Assembly: GCA_021372825.1 (NCBI GenBank)
Contig: JAJFTR010000063.1
Coordinates: forward strand, 1 to 46,139
Origin: Actinomycetes bacterium
GTDB taxonomy: Bacteria; Actinomycetota; Coriobacteriia; Anaerosomatales; Anaerosomataceae
Direction of reading: 5' to 3'
Length of the DNA: 46,139 nucleotides
The notes below the pieces were generated by a model that ran no database searches, was not told the DNA's origin, and saw only the letters and a program-made list of their open reading frames with translations. Of this stretch, positions 17,007 to 27,065 are shown piece by piece. How positions within the stretch are numbered: the first letter of the stretch is position 1; each line of letters starts with the position of its first letter. A program made the position numbers and the translations under genes.

Positions 17007-17023
17007 CGGTACGACCTTTAAAC

Positions 17024-17726
<703 letters not shown>

Positions 17727-17731
17727 CCGGG

Positions 17732-18667
17732 ATGCTTTCATGCCGACACATCATGACGATGAGCGATCTGGACGCCGACGACATCATCTCCATACTCGAT
17801 ACCGCCGACTCGTTCTCCGAGGTGAACGAGCGGCGCATCAAGAAGCTTCCCACGCTGCGTGGTCGCACCGTGGTCAACCTCTTCCTCGAGCCGAGTACGC
17901 GGACTCGCACGTCATTCGAGCTTGCCGCTAAGCGGCTATCCGCTGACGCGATCAACTTCTCGGCGTCGGCTTCCGCTACTGTGAAAGGCGAGAGTCTCCG
18001 CGATACCGCCAGGACCCTCTCGGCGATGGCGTGCGACCTGGTGATCGTCCGCCATCGCTATGCGGGAGCGCCGCACATGCTTGCCGAGTGTATGGACGCG
18101 CACATCATAAACGGCGGGGACGGCATCCATGAGCATCCGACGCAGGCGCTGCTCGACCTGTTCACGATGCGCCGCACGCTCGGACGCCTGGAGGGGCTCA
18201 CAGTGGGCATCATCGGTGACATCGCGCACTCACGGGTGGCGGGCTCGCTCGTGCCCGCGCTGCGCACTGTCGGCGCCACTCCTGTGGTCATCGGCCCGCC
18301 GACGCTCATGCCGGCCCGTCCTGACGTGCTTGGCGCCGACGTGGCGTACTCGCTCGACGAGGCGCTGCCGACCCTGGATGTCGCGTACATGTTAAGGGTC
18401 CAGTTCGAGCGCGCGGACGCGATGCCGTTCCCGAGCAATCGCGAATATGCGCGATTGTACGGGATGAACGCGTCCCGCATGGCATCGGCCAAGCCCGAGA
18501 TGATCGTGATGCACCCAGGGCCGATGAACCGGGGCGTGGAGATCTCAGCCGATGTGGCCGATTCACCTCGGTCGGTGGTGCTCGACCAGGTCAACGCGGG
18601 CGTGGCGGTGCGGATGGCCGTGATGTACCTGCTCCTGGGAGGCGAGGACAGTGGCGCTGCTGCTTAA
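17732..18667 (+). CDS. pyrB: Aspartate carbamoyltransferase catalytic subunit
   Basis: Condenses carbamoyl phosphate with aspartate, the second step of UMP synthesis. It has 311 residues. The carbamoyl-phosphate motif EPSTRTRTSFE is at residues 53-63, HRYAGAPHM and the EHPTQALLDLFT motif follow, and the aspartate domain carries MHPGPMNRGVEI. No pyrI regulatory subunit gene is adjacent, so it probably works as a simple trimer. The start ATG at 17732 is five bases after pyrR. An internal ATG at residue 8 or 10 is also possible. Its 3' end overlaps pyrC. Confidence 0.96.
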   Translation: MLSCRHIMTMSDLDADDIISILDTADSFSEVNERRIKKLPTLRGRTVVNLFLEPSTRTRTSFELAAKRLSADAINFSASASATVKGESLRDTARTLSAMACDLVIVRHRYAGAPHMLAECMDAHIINGGDGIHEHPTQALLDLFTMRRTLGRLEGLTVGIIGDIAHSRVAGSLVPALRTVGATPVVIGPPTLMPARPDVLGADVAYSLDEALPTLDVAYMLRVQFERADAMPFPSNREYARLYGMNASRMASAKPEMIVMHPGPMNRGVEISADVADSPRSVVLDQVNAGVAVRMAVMYLLLGGEDSGAAA

Positions 18668-19943
18668 GAACGGACGTGTCGTCGATCCATCCAAGGGCAC
18701 GGATGAGGTTGCTGACATCGTCATCCGGGATGGGGTGATCGTCGAGATCGGCCACGACCTCACGATCCCTAAGGGCGAGACTCTCGATGTGAGCGAGAAG
18801 GTCATACTTCCCGGCCTGGTGGACCTACACACCCACCTGCGCGAGCCGGGCCGTGAGGATGAGGAGACGATCTTCTCGGGAACGGCAGCTGCTGCGCGTG
18901 GCGGATTCACTGCGGTGTGCGCGATGCCCAACACGGATCCCGTGTGTGACAACGGCTCGAAGGTGCGGTTCGTGGTGGAGAGAGCGGCCGAGGAGGGCCT
19001 GGTGCGCGTGTATCCCATCGGCGCCGTCACGAAGGGGCAGGCAGGGGAGCAGCTCGCGGAGATAGGTGACATGCGCGCTGAGGGAGCGGTGGCGTTCAGC
19101 GACGACGGGCACAGCATCTCCTCGGCAGGGATGGCTCGTGTGGCGATGGACTACCTGAAGGCGTTCGACGCGGTGATGGTCAGTCACTGCGAAGACACCT
19201 CGCTCTCGCGCCCAGGAGTGGTGAACGAGGGCGTCGTCTCCACGCGGCTGGGATTGCCGGGATGGCCGGCTGCGGCCGAGGAGGTGATGGTCGCTCGCGA
19301 CATCCGGCTTTCGGAGCTGACGGGGTGTCGCGTACACCTCGCGCATCTGTCGACCGCCCGCTCTGTCGACCTGGTGCGCGAGGCCAAAGCTCGCGGCGTC
19401 CGTGTGACGTGTGAGGTCACGCCCCATCACCTCTTCCTCGATGAAGATGCGCTGGTGAGCTATGATACGAACCTCAAGATGAATCCTCCGCTGCGAACGG
19501 CGGCTGATCGGCACGCACTCGTCGAGGGATTGCTCGATGGGACGGTTGACGCGATAGCGACGGACCATGCGCCTCACGCACCTCACGAGAAGGAGCTCGA
19601 GTTCGAGCTGGCGCCGTTCGGCACCACGGGACTGGAAACGGCTCTCTCGCTCGTGAACACGCATCTCGTGGCCACGGGCCGGCTCTCATGGAACGATGTG
19701 GCGCGACTGATGAGCTCGGGCCCTCGGGCAGTGTTCGGACTGCCCCGCGTGCGGATCGAACCCGGCCAAGTCGCCGACATCACAGTCGTCGACCCTGAGG
19801 CTCGAGTAGAGGTTGCGGCCGACTCGTTCGTGAGTGCGTCGCGCAACTCAGCCTTCATCGGACAGAGGCTGCTGGGACGCGCGAGTGAGGTCCTTGTCGG
19901 CGGGTACTTCGCCCTCAAGGGTGGGAAGGTGGTCGACAGGTGA
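18651..19943 (+). CDS. pyrC: Dihydroorotase
   Basis: Cyclises carbamoyl aspartate to dihydroorotate. It has 430 residues, of the type I (long) dihydroorotase class. Zinc ligands His60 and His62 lie in DLHTHLREPG, the ATDHAPH motif provides the catalytic Asp, and NPPLR is present. The GTG start at 18651 lies within pyrB, overlapping it by 17 bases, with GGGAGGCGAGG as ribosome site. The carA start overlaps its stop. Confidence 0.96.
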   Translation: MALLLKNGRVVDPSKGTDEVADIVIRDGVIVEIGHDLTIPKGETLDVSEKVILPGLVDLHTHLREPGREDEETIFSGTAAAARGGFTAVCAMPNTDPVCDNGSKVRFVVERAAEEGLVRVYPIGAVTKGQAGEQLAEIGDMRAEGAVAFSDDGHSISSAGMARVAMDYLKAFDAVMVSHCEDTSLSRPGVVNEGVVSTRLGLPGWPAAAEEVMVARDIRLSELTGCRVHLAHLSTARSVDLVREAKARGVRVTCEVTPHHLFLDEDALVSYDTNLKMNPPLRTAADRHALVEGLLDGTVDAIATDHAPHAPHEKELEFELAPFGTTGLETALSLVNTHLVATGRLSWNDVARLMSSGPRAVFGLPRVRIEPGQVADITVVDPEARVEVAADSFVSASRNSAFIGQRLLGRASEVLVGGYFALKGGKVVDR

Positions 19944-21220
19944 GCGACAGCGCGCGTGCGTTCCTCGCGCTCGAAGACGGGACGTTCTTCGAGGGAGTCT
20001 CGTGCGGAGCGCCCGGCGAGGTGTTCGGCGAGGCGGTCTTCAACACGTCGATGACGGGCTATCAAGAGGTGTTCACCGACCCGAGCTACGCGGGGCAGAT
20101 CGTGGTGATGACCTCGCCGCATATCGGCAACTACGGAGTGAACGCGGCCGACATGGAGTCGAGCGGCGTCTTCGCCTCAGGTTTCGTGATGCGCGAGTGC
20201 TCGCCGGTCGCGTCGAACTGGCGCGCTGAGGAGAGCCTTCGCGAGTTCTTCGCGCGAAACAGGGTGGTTGCGGCCGAGGGTATCGACACGCGGCGCCTCA
20301 CTCGGCACATCCGCGAGGCAGGCGCCATGCGGGCGGTGCTGTCGACTGTGGATGCCGACCCCGCGTCGCTCGTGGAAAAGGCGCGCGCCTCTCTTGGACT
20401 CGTGGGAAGGGACCTCGTGCGAGAGGTCGCCGTCACAGAGCGGTTCACGTGGGGATCGGAAGTCCCGCCCGGGTGCGAGCTTCCCGTGGACACGGGGGTG
20501 CTTCCCGCCGAGTCACGCTTCCGGGTGGTGGCGTTCGACTCAGGCATCAAGTGGAACATCCTGCGACGTCTTGCTGAAGCATCGTGTGAGGTCATCGTCG
20601 TACCGCCGGCGACGACTGCCGACGAAGCGCTTGCGCTCGCCCCGGACGGGGTGTTCTTCGCGAACGGTCCGGGGGACCCGGCGGCGGTGCCGTACCTCTA
20701 CCGCACTCTAGGCGATCTACTCGGTAAGAGGCCCCTCTTCGGCATCTGCCTTGGGCATCAGATGCTCTCCCTCGCGCTGGGAGGTGAGACCTACAAGCTG
20801 AAGTACGGGCACCACGGAGGCAACCAGCCGGTCAAGAATCTGCTCACCGGTCGCGTGGAGATCACCAGCCAGAACCACGGCTTTTGTGTGGACTTTGCGA
20901 GTATCGGCGAGCTCATCTTGGAAGAAAGCGGAGGATGGGCGCTCGACCCTGGCGACCTCGCAGGGTGGGTGCGCGTGGGGGTGCCGCCAGTGGTACGCTC
21001 GGAGCGGTACGGCCGCGTGCGGCTCACGCACGTCAATCTCAATGACATGACAGTCGAGGGGCTCGAGGCTCTCGACCAGCGCGCCTTCTCGGTGCAGTAC
21101 CATCCGGAGGCGGCTCCGGGCCCGCACGATGCGGCCTACCTGTTCGGGTCGTTCGTGGGACTCATGCACGGCGACGGAGAGACGCTTGAGGCGGGAGCGG
21201 GAACTCCCGCACGTCGATAA
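19940..21220 (+). CDS. carA: Carbamoyl phosphate synthase small (glutaminase) subunit
   Basis: Supplies ammonia from glutamine to CarB. It has 426 residues, longer than the usual 360-385. The N-terminal CarA domain (NTSMTGYQEVFTDPSY) is followed by a class I glutamine amidotransferase with Cys270 in GICLGHQM, and His388 and Glu390 in QYHPEAAPGPHDA. The triad is complete. Much of the extra length is a segment of about 45 residues between NHGFCV and THVNLND, where homologues have about 12-20, plus a short C-terminal tail. The GTG start overlaps the pyrC stop. A usp gene separates it from carB. Confidence 0.96.
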   Translation: MSDSARAFLALEDGTFFEGVSCGAPGEVFGEAVFNTSMTGYQEVFTDPSYAGQIVVMTSPHIGNYGVNAADMESSGVFASGFVMRECSPVASNWRAEESLREFFARNRVVAAEGIDTRRLTRHIREAGAMRAVLSTVDADPASLVEKARASLGLVGRDLVREVAVTERFTWGSEVPPGCELPVDTGVLPAESRFRVVAFDSGIKWNILRRLAEASCEVIVVPPATTADEALALAPDGVFFANGPGDPAAVPYLYRTLGDLLGKRPLFGICLGHQMLSLALGGETYKLKYGHHGGNQPVKNLLTGRVEITSQNHGFCVDFASIGELILEESGGWALDPGDLAGWVRVGVPPVVRSERYGRVRLTHVNLNDMTVEGLEALDQRAFSVQYHPEAAPGPHDAAYLFGSFVGLMHGDGETLEAGAGTPARR

Positions 21221-21229
21221 GGAGGGATG

Positions 21230-22075
21230 ATGCTGCGGACGGTCATGGTGCCCACGGACTTCTCGGAAGACAATGAGAGCATCCTCGCCTTTGCGAAGGG
21301 GCTCCCAGCTCTGGGCGTGAAGGTGGTGGTGCTCACCCATGTGGTGGAGGCTTCCGGTATGGAGGGTCCGGTGATCGCCGCCACGGTCGATGAGGTGAGA
21401 GACCGTCTTCGGGTCTCGGCTGCTGAGCTTGAGGCGGCAGGGCTGAGCGTGGAGGTCCGAGTGCCCACCGGGGACCCGTTCGATACGATCGTGGCACTGG
21501 CGAACGAGATGGGCGTGGATGCGATCGTCTGCGGAAGCCATGCGAAGGGCATCATGACACAGCTCGTGGAAGCCTCGGTCTCGGAACGCCTCGTGCGCGA
21601 CGCGCCGGTCCCTCTGCTCCTGGTGAGGTTCGACCTTCTCAAGATGCAGGCCGAGCCAGCTGCGCTGCTCAAGCGCTTCGGAGAGAAGGTGCTGCTTCCC
21701 ACCGACTTCTCGCTTTCCGCTTCGCATGCGTTCACTGCGGCGATGGAGCTGCCTAAGGGCACGATCAAGTCGCTTTACCTCATGCACGTGGTCGACCCCG
21801 CGCTGACCGGTGAGAAGCTACGCAAGGCCGAGGAAGGCGCCGAATCCCACCTGCGCGATCTGCAGGCCATAGCCGCGCAACAGGGGATCCAGGCGAGCGT
21901 GGTCGTGAGAAGAGGCGAGCCTCGGCACGCCATCTTGACGGAGATCGACGAGAGACGTGTCACGGGCGTGATCACAGGCACACGAGGCCGGAACGCCGTT
22001 CAGGAGGCGCTTCTCGGCAGCGTGTCTCGCACGGTGTTCCGTCAGGCATCCTGCCCTGTCATGATCGTCCCTTAG
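21230..22075 (+). CDS. Tandem universal stress protein (UspA family)
   Basis: A 281-residue protein of two Usp domains (about 1-135 and 145-281). The second keeps the ATP-binding signature GTRG-9 residues-GS (GTRGRNAVQEALLGS); the first has a degenerate GSHAKG loop, so probably only one half binds nucleotide. The ATG at 21230 is preferred over 21227 because GGAGG at 21221-21225 is then four bases away rather than one. The gene lies inside the pyr operon between carA and carB, nine bases ahead of carB, and so should be co-expressed with pyrimidine synthesis. Its role there is unknown. Confidence 0.9.
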   Translation: MLRTVMVPTDFSEDNESILAFAKGLPALGVKVVVLTHVVEASGMEGPVIAATVDEVRDRLRVSAAELEAAGLSVEVRVPTGDPFDTIVALANEMGVDAIVCGSHAKGIMTQLVEASVSERLVRDAPVPLLLVRFDLLKMQAEPAALLKRFGEKVLLPTDFSLSASHAFTAAMELPKGTIKSLYLMHVVDPALTGEKLRKAEEGAESHLRDLQAIAAQQGIQASVVVRRGEPRHAILTEIDERRVTGVITGTRGRNAVQEALLGSVSRTVFRQASCPVMIVP

Positions 22076-22084
22076 AGGAGTCAG

Positions 22085-25000
22085 ATGCCGCGCAGAGACG
22101 ACATCTCGAAGATCTTGCTCATCGGAAGCGGTCCTATCGTCATCGGTCAGGCGTGCGAGTTCGACTACTCCGGCGCACAGGCGTGCAAGGTGCTGCGTGA
22201 GGACGGGTACGAAGTCGTGCTCGTCAACAGCAATCCCGCCACCATCATGACCGACCCGGAGTTCGCGCACCGCACGTACGTGGAGCCCGTGACGCCTTCC
22301 TTCGTCGAGAAGGTCATCGAGCGTGAGCGGCCTGATGCGCTGCTGCCCACCCTCGGCGGGCAGACCGGCCTCAACTGCGCTGTTGCCCTTGCCGAGACGG
22401 GCGTTCTGGAACGCTACGGTGTGGAGCTCATCGGCGCGAGACTCGAGGTCATCAAGAAGGGGGAGGACCGCCGTCTGTTCGCCGAGGCCATGGCCCGTAT
22501 CGGCCTCGACACTCCGCGCAGCGGGTACGCCTATAGCGTGAGCGATGCCGAGGAGATCGTCGCAAGCATCGGCTACCCTGCGGTGATCAGGCCGTCGTTC
22601 ACGATGGGAGGAGCGGGTGGCGGCATCGCCTACAACGTCGATGAGCTGCGAAGCGTCGTCACGCGTGGGATCGCTCTTTCTCCGGCGGGTGAAGTCCTCG
22701 TGGAGGAGAGCGTCATCGGCTGGAAAGAATACGAGATGGAGGTCATGCGCGACCGCAACGACAATGCGGTGATCGTGTGCTCGATCGAGAACTTCGACGC
22801 GATGGGCGTGCACACGGGGGATTCGATCACCGTCGCTCCCGCACAGACCCTCACTGACCGCGAGTACCAGGCGATGCGGGACGCCTCGCTCGCCATCATG
22901 CGGGAGATCGGCGTGGAGACAGGCGGCAGCAACGTGCAGTTCGCCATCGACCCGAAAGACGGCCGCCTCGTGGTGATCGAGATGAATCCGCGGGTCTCGC
23001 GCTCCTCGGCGCTTGCGAGCAAGGCGACGGGCTTCCCGATCGCGAAGTTCGCTGCCAAGCTCGCGGTGGGGTATACCCTCGACGAGATCCCCAACGACAT
23101 CACCCGCAAGACACCGGCCAGCTTCGAGCCTTCGATCGATTACACCGTCGTGAAGGTGCCCCGCTGGGCCTTCGAGAAGTTCCCGGGGACCGACCAGGCC
23201 TTAAGCACCCGCATGAAGAGTGTGGGCGAGGTCATGGCCATCGGTCGCACGTTCAGCGAGGCACTCGGCAAGGCGTTCCGGTCGCTTGAGACCGGGCGTA
23301 CGGGTCTCGGCGTCGACGGGAAGGACGCCTTCGACGAGGAGCACTTTGAACGTTACCTCGCAGTTCCCAACGAGAACCGGCCCTTTTACATGGCCGAGGC
23401 CTTCCGCCGTGGCCGTAGCGTGGAGGAGGTATCCGCGCTCACTCACGTCGACCCGTGGTTTTGCGAACAGATGCGTCGCATGGTGGCCGTCGAGCGCGAC
23501 ATCGCGGGACGGGCGCTTGACACGTTGGATGTCGAGCAGATGCGTATCGCCAAGCGGCAGGGGCTGTCCGACGCGCAGATCGCTTACCTTACGGGTTCGG
23601 TCGAGGCCGAGGTTCGCGCCAGGAGGATGGACCTCGACGTGAGGCCGACCTTCAAGTCGGTCGATACCTGTGCGGCGGAGTTCGAGGCGTCGACGCCCTA
23701 TTACTACAAGACGTACGAGGACGAGGACGAGGCATGCCCGTCGGACCGTCGTAAGGTGATGATCCTCGGAGCGGGGCCGAACCGCATCGGGCAGGGCATA
23801 GAGTTCGACTACTGCTGCGTGCATGCGGCGTATGCGCTTTCTGAGCTCGGCTACGAGACGATCATGGTCAATTGCAATCCCGAGACGGTCTCCACCGACT
23901 ACGACACCAGCGACCGGCTCTACTTCGAGCCGCTCACCTTCGAGGACGTCATGGATGTCTTTGAGACAGAGAGACCCTCGGGCGTGCTCGTCACCTTCGG
24001 CGGCCAGACACCGCTTAAGTTGGCACGCTCGCTTGAGGCGGCTGGCGTCCCGATCCTCGGCACCAGGCCAGAGGCGATCGATCTTGCGGAGGATAGGAAG
24101 CGGTTCGCTGAAGTGCTCGACCGGCTCGGCATCCGGTATCCTGCGGCCGGTACCGCGTCCACGGTCGCCGAGGCGATAAACATCGCGAAGCGGATAGGCT
24201 ACCCCTTGCTTGTGCGCCCGAGCTACGTGCTCGGCGGGCAGGGGATGGTCATCGCCTATTCCGAGGAGTACCTGGTGCGCTACATGGAACGCGCCACCGA
24301 AGTGAGTCCCGACCACCCGGTGTTGCTCGATCGCTTCTTGGAAGGAGCGATCGAGGTCGACGTGGATGCGGTGTGCGACGGCGCCTCGGTCTACATCGGC
24401 GGTGTGATGGAGCACATCGAGGAGGCGGGGATCCACTCAGGCGACTCGGCATGTTGCATCCCGCCCTTCTCCTTGGGCGCCGAGACGGTGGCACGTATTC
24501 GAGAGCACACACGCGCACTTGCCCTTGAGATCGGAGTAATGGGGCTCATGAACGTGCAGTTCGCTGTCAAAGACGAACAGGTGTACGTTCTTGAGGTGAA
24601 CCCCCGCGCGAGCCGGACGGTACCGTTCGTGAGCAAGGCCACAGGGGTGCCGCTCGCCAAAGTCGCCGCTCGCGTGATGGCGGGAGTGCGTCTTGCCGAG
24701 ATGGACCTTCCCGACGAGGAACGCGAGCTCGGCCGCTTCTGCGTGAAGGAAGCGGTGATGCCCTTCGGGCGGTTCCCGGGTAGCGATTCCGTGCTCGGCC
24801 CGGAGATGAAGTCGACGGGAGAAGTGATGGGGGTCGCGGCGGACTTCCCCAGCGCTTACGCGAAGAGCCAACTTGCGATCGACTACTCTCTGCCCGACGG
24901 AGGCACGGCTTTCATCTCGGTATGCGACCGTGATAAACGGGCGATCGTCCCGGTGGCGCGGCATCTGCATCACTTGGGCTTCCGCATACTGTCCACGCAC

Positions 25001-25306
25001 GGGACGGCGCGCTCGCTGAAGGCCGCCGGGATTCCCGTCGAGGAGGTGCTGAAGGTCCACGAGGGCCGTCCGAATGTCGTCGACGCCCTTAAGAACGGTG
25101 ACGTGCAGCTGGTGGTCAACACGCCGTTCGGCCGTGAGACTCGCTCGGACGGCTACCACATCCGGACGGCCGCGGTGGAGCATGGGATCACCAACATCAC
25201 CACTGTGTCGGCCGCGCAGGCAGTGACGCAGGCCATCGAAGCGATGCTCTCGGGCAGACTCGATGTGGTGGCGCTTCAGGACATGGGGACGGAGGGCGGC
25301 GCGTGA
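22085..25306 (+). CDS. carB: Carbamoyl phosphate synthase large subunit
   Basis: Makes carbamoyl phosphate from bicarbonate, ammonia and two ATP. It has 1073 residues, the standard length. Two homologous ATP-grasp halves are visible (first [17 protein letters not shown], second [17 protein letters not shown] near residue 557), an oligomerisation segment between them, and an MGS-like allosteric domain from about residue 940 ([13 protein letters not shown]). Both halves carry VEMNPR/LEVNPR-type metal motifs. The ATG has GAGGAG upstream. The last codons overlap the pyrK start. Only CarA-like and CarB-like proteins of this operon are seen, so it probably serves arginine as well. Confidence 0.97.
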
Positions 25307-26130
25307 CACCCGATCCTCAGGCGGCGCGCACGTCCCTCGAGCGCATGCGTGTCGTGAAGAATGTGCAGCTCACCGAGGGTGTCGGGCTTGTCGTCTTCGA
25401 TGCTCCGCGCATCGCCCGGCAGGTGCGACCGGGGCAGTTCATCCACCTGCGCATCGCTCGGGATGCGGCATTCATCCTGCGCCGCCCGTTTTCCGTGCAT
25501 CGGGTGCGCGGAGACCTCATCGAGATCGTGTACCAAGTGCTCGGCGTCGGTACGCGAGCGCTCTCGCTTGCCGCGCCGGGTGAGGTGATGGACGCGATCG
25601 GTCCGCTCGGTACTGGCTGGGACGTCCCAGACGACGTCACGCACGCTCTTCTCGTCGCAGGAGGACTTGGCGCTGCTCCTTTGGGCATGCTTGCCGAGGA
25701 GCTCTCAGCGCATGGCGTGGCGGTGAGTGTGGCGTTGGGCGCCCCCACGGGGGAGCGGCTGGTGGGCCGGGAGCTCTTCGAGAGTGTCGCGCGCCGCGTG
25801 GTCCTGTGCACCGACGACGGGACAGTGGGCCGAGCAGGGTTCGTCACGGCGGTCGTCGATGCCCTTCTTGTGGCTGACAGGCCCGATATCGTCTGCGCAT
25901 GCGGGCCTGAGGCGATGGCGCGCACAGTGTGTGAGAAGGCGTCGGCTGCAGGCGTGCCCTGCCGCGTCTCGCTCGAGCGGCTCATGGCGTGTGGAGTGGG
26001 GGCGTGTCTGTCCTGTGTGGTGAGTACGCGCACGGGGCAGAAGCGCGCATGCATAGACGGCCCGGTATTCTGGGCGGACGACGTGGTATGGGAGTCCGTC
26101 GATGCATCGTGCTGGCGTGGACAGGGGTGA
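25303..26130 (+). CDS. pyrK: Dihydroorotate dehydrogenase electron transfer subunit
   Basis: The iron-sulfur flavoprotein partner of class 1B PyrD, passing electrons to NAD+. It has 275 residues: FAD-binding beta barrel with RRPFSVH, NAD-binding domain with [13 protein letters not shown], and a C-terminal [2Fe-2S] site with Cys230, Cys235, Cys238 and Cys250. The GTG start overlaps the carB stop. The pairing with pyrD next door confirms the NAD-dependent class 1B enzyme, which suits anaerobic life because it does not need quinone. Confidence 0.95.
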
Positions 26131-26132
26131 GC

Positions 26133-27065
26133 ATGGACGTCGACATGACAGTCGAAGTCGGGCCGCTCACCTTGCGTTCCCCGGTGGTCACCGCTTCGGG
26201 AACGTTCGGCTCGGGGCGCGAGTACGCGGACTTCGTCGACCTCACGCGTCTAGGCGCTGTGGTGACCAAAGGCGTTTCGTGGGACGCCTGGCCGGGCAAT
26301 CCGGGTCCGCGCATCGCCGAGACGGCGAGCGGGATGCTCAACTCGATCGGGCTCCAGAACCCCGGGGTGGAGGCGTTCATCGAAAGCGACCTCGCCTGGC
26401 TCGCGACCCAGGACGTGCCGGTGATCGTGAACGTCGCGGGGCACACGGTCGCGGAATACGTCGCGGTGGCCGAGCGGCTCTCGGCCGAGTCGAGCGTCGC
26501 CGCGCTCGAGCTCAACATCTCATGCCCGAACGTGGACGAGGGGGGTCTTGCGTTCGGCACGACGTGTAAGGCGGCGGCCGAGGTGACCCGAGCGGTGCGC
26601 GCGGCGACCGGTCTTCCACTGATCGTCAAACTCTCTCCCAACGTGACGGACGTCTCGGAGATCGCGCGTGCGATGGAAGCGGAAGGTGCGGATGCGGTGA
26701 GCCTCATCAACACGCTTCTCGGCATGTCGATCGATACCGTCACGTGGCGCCCCAGGCTTGCTCGGACTGTCGGCGGTCTTTCCGGCCCCGCCATCAAGCC
26801 GGTGGCGCTTCGGATGGTGTGGCAGGTGGCGTCTCGTGTCGGCATCCCCGTGATCGGCATGGGCGGTATCATGAGCGCCGAGGACGCCGTCGAGTTCATG
26901 CTTGCCGGTGCCTGTGCGGTGGCTGTCGGGACGGCGAACTTCGTCGACCCGGCAGCGACGATGAAGATCACTGACGGTCTGGAGTCGTATTGCCGACAGC
27001 GAGACATCCCTCGAGTCGCGGATCTGACCGGCGCTATAGTCGCACAGCGGACAGGAGAGCGATGA
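26133..27065 (+). CDS. pyrD: Dihydroorotate dehydrogenase, class 1B catalytic subunit
   Basis: Oxidises dihydroorotate to orotate with FMN. It has 310 residues and a TIM-barrel. The catalytic Cys131 lies in NISCPNVDEGG, typical of class 1 enzymes. Other FMN-site motifs are VTASGTFGSG, GVSWDAWPGNPGPR-like, LSGPAIKPVALRMV and GMGGIMSAEDAVEF. The ATG at 26133 sits behind AGGGG; a GTG at 26127 is an alternative. The upstream in-frame sequence to 25989 lies inside pyrK. It overlaps the next, unrelated, gene by four bases. Confidence 0.96.
   Translation: MDVDMTVEVGPLTLRSPVVTASGTFGSGREYADFVDLTRLGAVVTKGVSWDAWPGNPGPRIAETASGMLNSIGLQNPGVEAFIESDLAWLATQDVPVIVNVAGHTVAEYVAVAERLSAESSVAALELNISCPNVDEGGLAFGTTCKAAAEVTRAVRAATGLPLIVKLSPNVTDVSEIARAMEAEGADAVSLINTLLGMSIDTVTWRPRLARTVGGLSGPAIKPVALRMVWQVASRVGIPVIGMGGIMSAEDAVEFMLAGACAVAVGTANFVDPAATMKITDGLESYCRQRDIPRVADLTGAIVAQRTGER

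Follow-up and report, generated by a model that had tools for sequence, protein, structure and literature searches.

A tandem universal stress protein gene between carA and carB in Coriobacteriia as a candidate accessory to carbamoyl-phosphate synthetase

Described Usps, described car operons and the locus in the window

Universal stress proteins (Usps) are very widespread, and few of them have a known target. Tandem Usps, in which two halves of the same fold are joined in one chain, include AF1760 of A. fulgidus (structure 3LOQ), TTHA0350 of T. thermophilus, Rv2623 of M. tuberculosis and UspE of E. coli. A Usp can also serve a single partner: TeaD of Halomonas elongata serves one transporter, TeaABC, and the title of its structure, 3HGM, places it as ‘from the TRAP transporter TeaABC’. 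The subunits of carbamoyl-phosphate synthetase (CPS) are encoded by carA and carB, which have no gene in between in E. coli. In P. aeruginosa, where we take carA to be PA4758, a foreign gene lies between the two. This gene, PA4757, encodes an amino acid efflux permease and is numbered next to carB, PA4756 (PMC9866376, in excerpt); the preliminary description of the locus studied here had called carA and carB normally adjacent, a statement that stands only with such exceptions. Usps, tandem Usps, Usps with one partner, and carA and carB separated by some other gene are thus already known. A Usp tied to carA or carB was reported in none of the titles and abstract openings found by our literature search. 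The review PMC6245113 nowhere uses ‘universal stress’ in its main text, ‘carbamoyl’ does not occur in PMC11944479 (in excerpt), and a term search of the main text of the 2022 description of Anaerosomatales found none of ‘universal stress’, ‘carbamoyl’ and ‘pyrimidine’.

The window, by which we mean the whole stretch of 46,139 nucleotides analysed here, is from an assembly of 1.94 Mb that is 99.5% complete. Its source belongs to the order Anaerosomatales, which is part of the class Coriobacteriia (PMC9686372, in excerpt). Open reading frames and Pfam matches give the operon order pyrR-pyrB-pyrC-carA-usp-carB-pyrK-pyrD, with all genes on the + strand (Table 1). The preliminary description had placed a tandem Usp with one intact ATP-binding motif in the interval between carA and carB, only nine bases from carB, and the coordinates and domain matches bear out each of these points. 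The gap to carB, AGGAGTCAG, is exactly 9 nt. PF00582 matches the usp product in two stretches (156.1 bits against a curated cut-off of 24, E 1.1e-45), and the halves taken separately score 76.1 and 89.2 bits. The nucleotide motif is complete in the C-half, as G251-TR-G254-x9-G264-S, but not in the N-half, which reads G103-SH-A106-x9-A116-S.

The gap between carA and usp is 6-9 nt, depending on the start chosen for usp. The first ATG of the frame is at 21227; the ATG at 21230, given as the start in the preliminary description, is the better choice because the GGAGGG at 21221-21226 and most ortholog N-termini fit it. An AGGAG lies ahead of carB at 22076-22080. Upstream of pyrR, a leader resembling a PyrR-binding site scores below the curated Rfam cut-off of 54 bits, and with such a leader usp would probably be under PyrR control together with the rest of the operon. 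Elsewhere, the source genome encodes one further tandem Usp above the cut-off (C62), with 29% identity to the Usp of the car genes (car-Usp), and it has one CarA N-domain in all.

Table 1. Features of the pyr operon in the window, with the truncated carA genes of four genomes of family f20 (these on their own contigs, marked by locus)
Feature	Position	Strand	Basis
PyrR-binding-site-like leader RNA	17011..17135	+	Rfam RF00515, 43.2 bits, E 0.0027, full model length
pyrR	17169..17726	+	ORF; PF00156 over cut-off; same position in relatives
pyrB (aspartate carbamoyltransferase)	17732..18667	+	PF02729, PF00185
pyrC (dihydroorotase)	18651..19943	+	PF01979, PF12890
carA	19940..21220	+	PF00988 CPSase_sm_chain, PF00117 GATase; GICLGHQ and HPEA present (alignment)
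GGAGGG, likely usp ribosome-binding site	21221..21226	+	read in sequence
usp, tandem universal stress protein, 281-282 aa	21227..22075	+	PF00582 twice, AlphaFold model, 3LOQ match
Usp N-half	21230..21628	+	G-SH-A-x9-A-S; signature SGMEGPVI
Usp C-half	21683..22072	+	complete nucleotide motif G-TR-G-x9-G-S
carB, with MGS-like allosteric domain	22085..25306	+	CPSase_L_D1/D2/D3 and MGS (Pfam)
pyrK	25303..26130	+	PF10418
pyrD (estimated start)	26133..27065	+	PF01180
carA without glutaminase, family f20	L125 3769-4560; L126 3790-4581; L130 1314-2102; L132 5481-6257

The AlphaFold model of the Usp has a pLDDT of 88.9 and a pTM of 0.87, and pLDDT falls below 50 solely at residues 108-116 and 256-263, which lie within the two motif loops. 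The best PDB match in a fold search with this model is the tandem Usp 3LOQ (E 2.1e-16), and Foldseek comparison with AF1760, TTHA0350, Rv2623 and UspE gives TM-scores of 0.67-0.77 on the query at 16-26% identity; the four match in sequence too. The likeness to AF1760 extends to the typical motif, which lies in what must be the C-half of that protein as it does in car-Usp (PMC3673472, in excerpt). Unlike these tandem Usps, car-Usp sits between carA and carB, and in Coriobacteriia it carries a G-x-E-x-P signature in its N-half. The TeaD structure also appeared in the fold search. For both TeaD and car-Usp, the place of the gene links the protein to a single partner system, but TeaD is a single-domain protein with a transporter as partner, whereas car-Usp is a tandem protein beside a biosynthetic enzyme. 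Similarly, the P. aeruginosa locus resembles ours in its foreign gene, which is however a permease and not a Usp.

The glutaminase of CarA is intact in the window as judged by the motifs GICLGHQ and HPEA. CarB matches the E. coli structure 1BXR over residues 1-1067, and in an alignment read by hand it keeps the residues that correspond to E. coli S948, T977, K993 and T1042, which are named in PMC6245113. The idea that the Usp replaces a lost allosteric control was rejected, since these effector residues are retained.

Conservation of the arrangement and of the protein

We searched 346 genomes of the class, drawn evenly from a larger group, with a Usp profile at E <= 1e-40. Orthologs were found in 65 of them, namely 24 of 27 genomes of the window's family, 33 of 42 in the rest of the order (57 of 69 for the order as a whole) and eight outside it. 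Within the window's family (the window's own genome included) identity is 59-100%, and two of the orthologs, those of G011 and G020, are partial. The G011 gene (L027 1391-2145) is split over two frames, possibly by sequencing error or gene decay. Family f20, to which we return below, has the Usp in five of nine genomes.

We inspected the genes flanking one locus in each genome, and all 65 orthologs proved to lie beside carA and/or carB. In 59 of these, carA precedes and carB follows; the remaining six have one car neighbour and a contig end at most 58 nt away on the other side. None of the 65 loci lies at any other place, as far as the contigs reach. With starts chosen by script, 64 of 68 loci have a gap of -11 to +26 nt between carA and usp. 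A search that reached close relatives only gave 20 loci, 12 of them linked to car, all in actinobacterial or Coriobacteriia records. That the arrangement might be conserved in no relative was the first objection that the preliminary description had raised against its own idea; what we find is strong conservation, and in a second class too (see below). Because the arrangement is conserved in relatives, a functional tie to CPS is the best reading, and this fixed place in many deep-branching anaerobic actinobacteria suggests that the Usp may be a dedicated helper or regulator of the enzyme. More precisely, the reading that we put first, though tentatively, is that car-Usp would be an accessory dedicated to CPS, a co-translated, adenine-nucleotide-responsive partner that modulates or stabilises it. 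(Partner prediction from gene neighbourhood alone had a precision of 55% in one benchmark; PMC6941341, in excerpt.) In second place, possible though less probable, we put the alternative that a general stress or growth-state Usp gains from co-production with the pyrimidine enzymes, acts elsewhere and never touches CPS. Such a gene would be expected to move within the operon sometimes, yet every class ortholog is at the carA-carB junction within the reach of its contig.

A search of 396 genomes of the phylum gave 19 matches, 15 of them outside the class, and a second profile search at E <= 1e-55 gave 18 of 396, none of them new beyond the first search. Nine of the 15 outside genomes have carA-usp-carB amid pyr genes, and all nine are in one other class (nine of its 36 genomes). 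The same gene order in two classes speaks further against a Usp which acts elsewhere. In the other six of the 15, no car genes were adjacent within the at least 1.2 kb checked on each side, and related Usps outside car operons are what that alternative would predict. By eye, the genes upstream of one unlinked Usp encode membrane proteins like those of NADH dehydrogenase. One genome (G362) has an unlinked Usp in two copies, back to back, and three unlinked Usps (L182 2012-2911, L183 4110-5866 and L184 1233-2132) are relatives of the car-Usps of the second class without adjoining car genes.

In a tree of 84 Usps, from which five partial sequences among the 65 were left out, the remaining 60 car-Usps of the class make up a single clade (98/95). 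A second group (98/95) holds the nine car-Usps of the second class together with two unlinked Usps. The tree thus prefers two groups of car-Usps with unlinked Usps beside the second, and an AU test (p 0.08, on a quick tree with one long row dropped) does not reject one common clade for them all. Either one old insertion was followed by later escapes, or two insertions took place at the same junction; both histories would favour a function.

The motif counts differ between the two halves. In the C-half, G-x2-G-x9-G-S/T is complete in 22 of 22 compared members of the window's family, 31 of 38 in the rest of the class and nine of nine in the second class. The corresponding counts for the N-half are 0/22, 27/38 and 8/9, and in the window's family the second Gly is replaced by Ala in 22/22, so decay of the N-half motif is fixed in this family and partial in the rest of the class. 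Among 15 unlinked Usps, the motif is complete in 11 N-halves and eight C-halves. Degenerate Usp sites can still bind nucleotide, as in TTHA0350 and AF0826 (PMC3673472, in excerpt). The N-half loop signature, G44-x-E46-x-P48, is shared by the car-Usps of the class (G44 in 59 of 60, E46 in 56, P48 in 55), which is a further point against a Usp that never touches CPS. E46 occurs in seven and P48 in five of the 15 unlinked Usps, and the nine car-Usps of the second class have P48 in all, E46 in two and G44 in three, so that they share the loop only at P48. We regard this loop as a candidate contact surface in the car-Usps of Coriobacteriia.

These counts also bear on the idea that the Usp, translated between the two subunits, chaperones the association of CarA and CarB, or protects CPS together with its unstable intermediates, and does so without nucleotide sensing. 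The fixed order and tight junctions would fit such a role, as would the tendency of operon order to follow the order of complex assembly (PMC4742563, in excerpt), but the completeness of the C-half motif is more than a pure scaffold needs and the absence of the Usp is tolerated (see below). We consider this improbable.

Absence of the Usp and exchange of its neighbours

The Usp is under purifying selection: dN/dS could be obtained for 11 of 12 close pairs and is 0.02-0.13. Over longer distances it is the least conserved of the three proteins (to G078, 49% identity for Usp, 71% for CarA and 80% for CarB); among the closest relatives it is not less conserved than CarA and CarB.

Twelve genomes of the order have no Usp match. 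In eight of them carA is directly followed by carB, three lack a CarA match at E <= 1e-40, and in one the contig breaks off within carA. We also chose eight Usp-less genomes of the class outside the order; five had a CarA hit, with carB next in all five and carA-carB gaps of up to ~270 nt (by BLAST ends). Such adjoining pairs, in which the junction exists without usp, are what one would expect of a chance insertion held solely by the cost of disrupting the operon. This explanation is nevertheless highly improbable, because selection acts on the protein, which moreover persists in two classes and has kept its motif.

A quick CarA+CarB tree was made for 36 genomes of the order, 29 with and seven without the Usp; presence and absence require six changes on it, five of them forced by well-supported branches. 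We read these as repeated losses of a dispensable Usp, and they imply that CPS works without it. In the same 29 and seven genomes, the CarA and CarB columns that track absence of the Usp are no more numerous than with shuffled labels (p 0.27 and 0.41). Both the repeated absence, with carA and carB then adjoining, and the lack of co-varying residues are in keeping with a Usp that benefits from the operon and acts elsewhere.

The same can be said of an apparent exchange of carB. In four of five genomes of genus g9 (G016-G019; L035, L036, L037 and L043), carB shares 89.5-91.5% identity with the carB of G108, a member of family f10, over residues ~1-854, and 79-80% with carB of the window. The Usp of G018 is 83% identical to that of the window and 52% identical to that of G108. 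It therefore seems that carB was replaced in g9 while usp is native, which argues against tight co-adaptation of Usp and CarB, or else for a conserved docking surface on CarB. Of the earlier interpretation, then, the functional tie to CPS stands as the best reading, within which the proposed tuning or stabilising of the complex and a coupling to ATP level are possible, and an essential or tightly co-adapted subunit is argued against by the absences, the lack of tracking residues and the replacement of carB.

A possible partner and mode of action

Five genomes keep the Usp beside a CarA that has no glutaminase active site. Four of them belong to family f20; in these, CarA of the operon measures 258-263 aa and lacks the regions of the catalytic Cys (GICLGHQ) and of His-Glu (HPEA), and usp and carB follow (Table 1). 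No second CarA N-domain was found in these four genomes, but their assemblies are 59-93% complete and may have missed a further CarA. As far as gene content tells, they probably have an ammonia-dependent CPS. The fifth genome, G035 of family f21, has an operon CarA that consists of the N-domain alone (173 aa, L129 5404-5925) beside usp-carB, and a full carA-carB pair on another contig (L093 1351-2382). Since the Usp persists without the glutaminase, its possible partner would be CarB or the CarA N-domain. A CarA-Usp read-through fold (CarA only, 12-row alignment, without interface scores) has a pTM of 0.52, which shows no defined placement of the two proteins relative to each other and, in this weak test, does not support contact. 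We also rejected the idea that the Usp stands in for the CarA glutaminase, since short CarA occurs in only five class genomes with complete operons here.

CPS spends two ATP, and its effectors in E. coli act mainly via the apparent affinity for MgATP (PMC6245113, in excerpt). For a dedicated accessory, the reading that we favour, we envisage the following. The Usp would be made from the same message as CarA and CarB, probably under PyrR control and in fixed order between them; its C-half most likely binds an adenine nucleotide; it would dock on CPS, at CarB or the CarA N-terminal domain; and, once docked, it would add an energy or adenylate input to an enzyme whose classical control sites are intact. 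If so, the textbook control of pyrimidine and arginine synthesis would gain an extra energy-sensing layer at this enzyme, and car-Usp would give this protein family a concrete target. A stronger version, which we think unlikely, makes the Usp a third, regulatory subunit of CPS, an adenylate sensor on CarB, the CarA N-domain or both that anaerobic actinobacteria would have inherited from an ancestor or recruited twice; two lineages would then have lost the glutaminase, leaving an ammonia-fed CarA(N)-Usp-CarB.

Genomes that combine the Usp with a CarA devoid of glutaminase, and genomes without the Usp, offer natural contrasts. One of the latter is G031, a member of family f20 whose CarA retains both GICLGHQ and HPEA.
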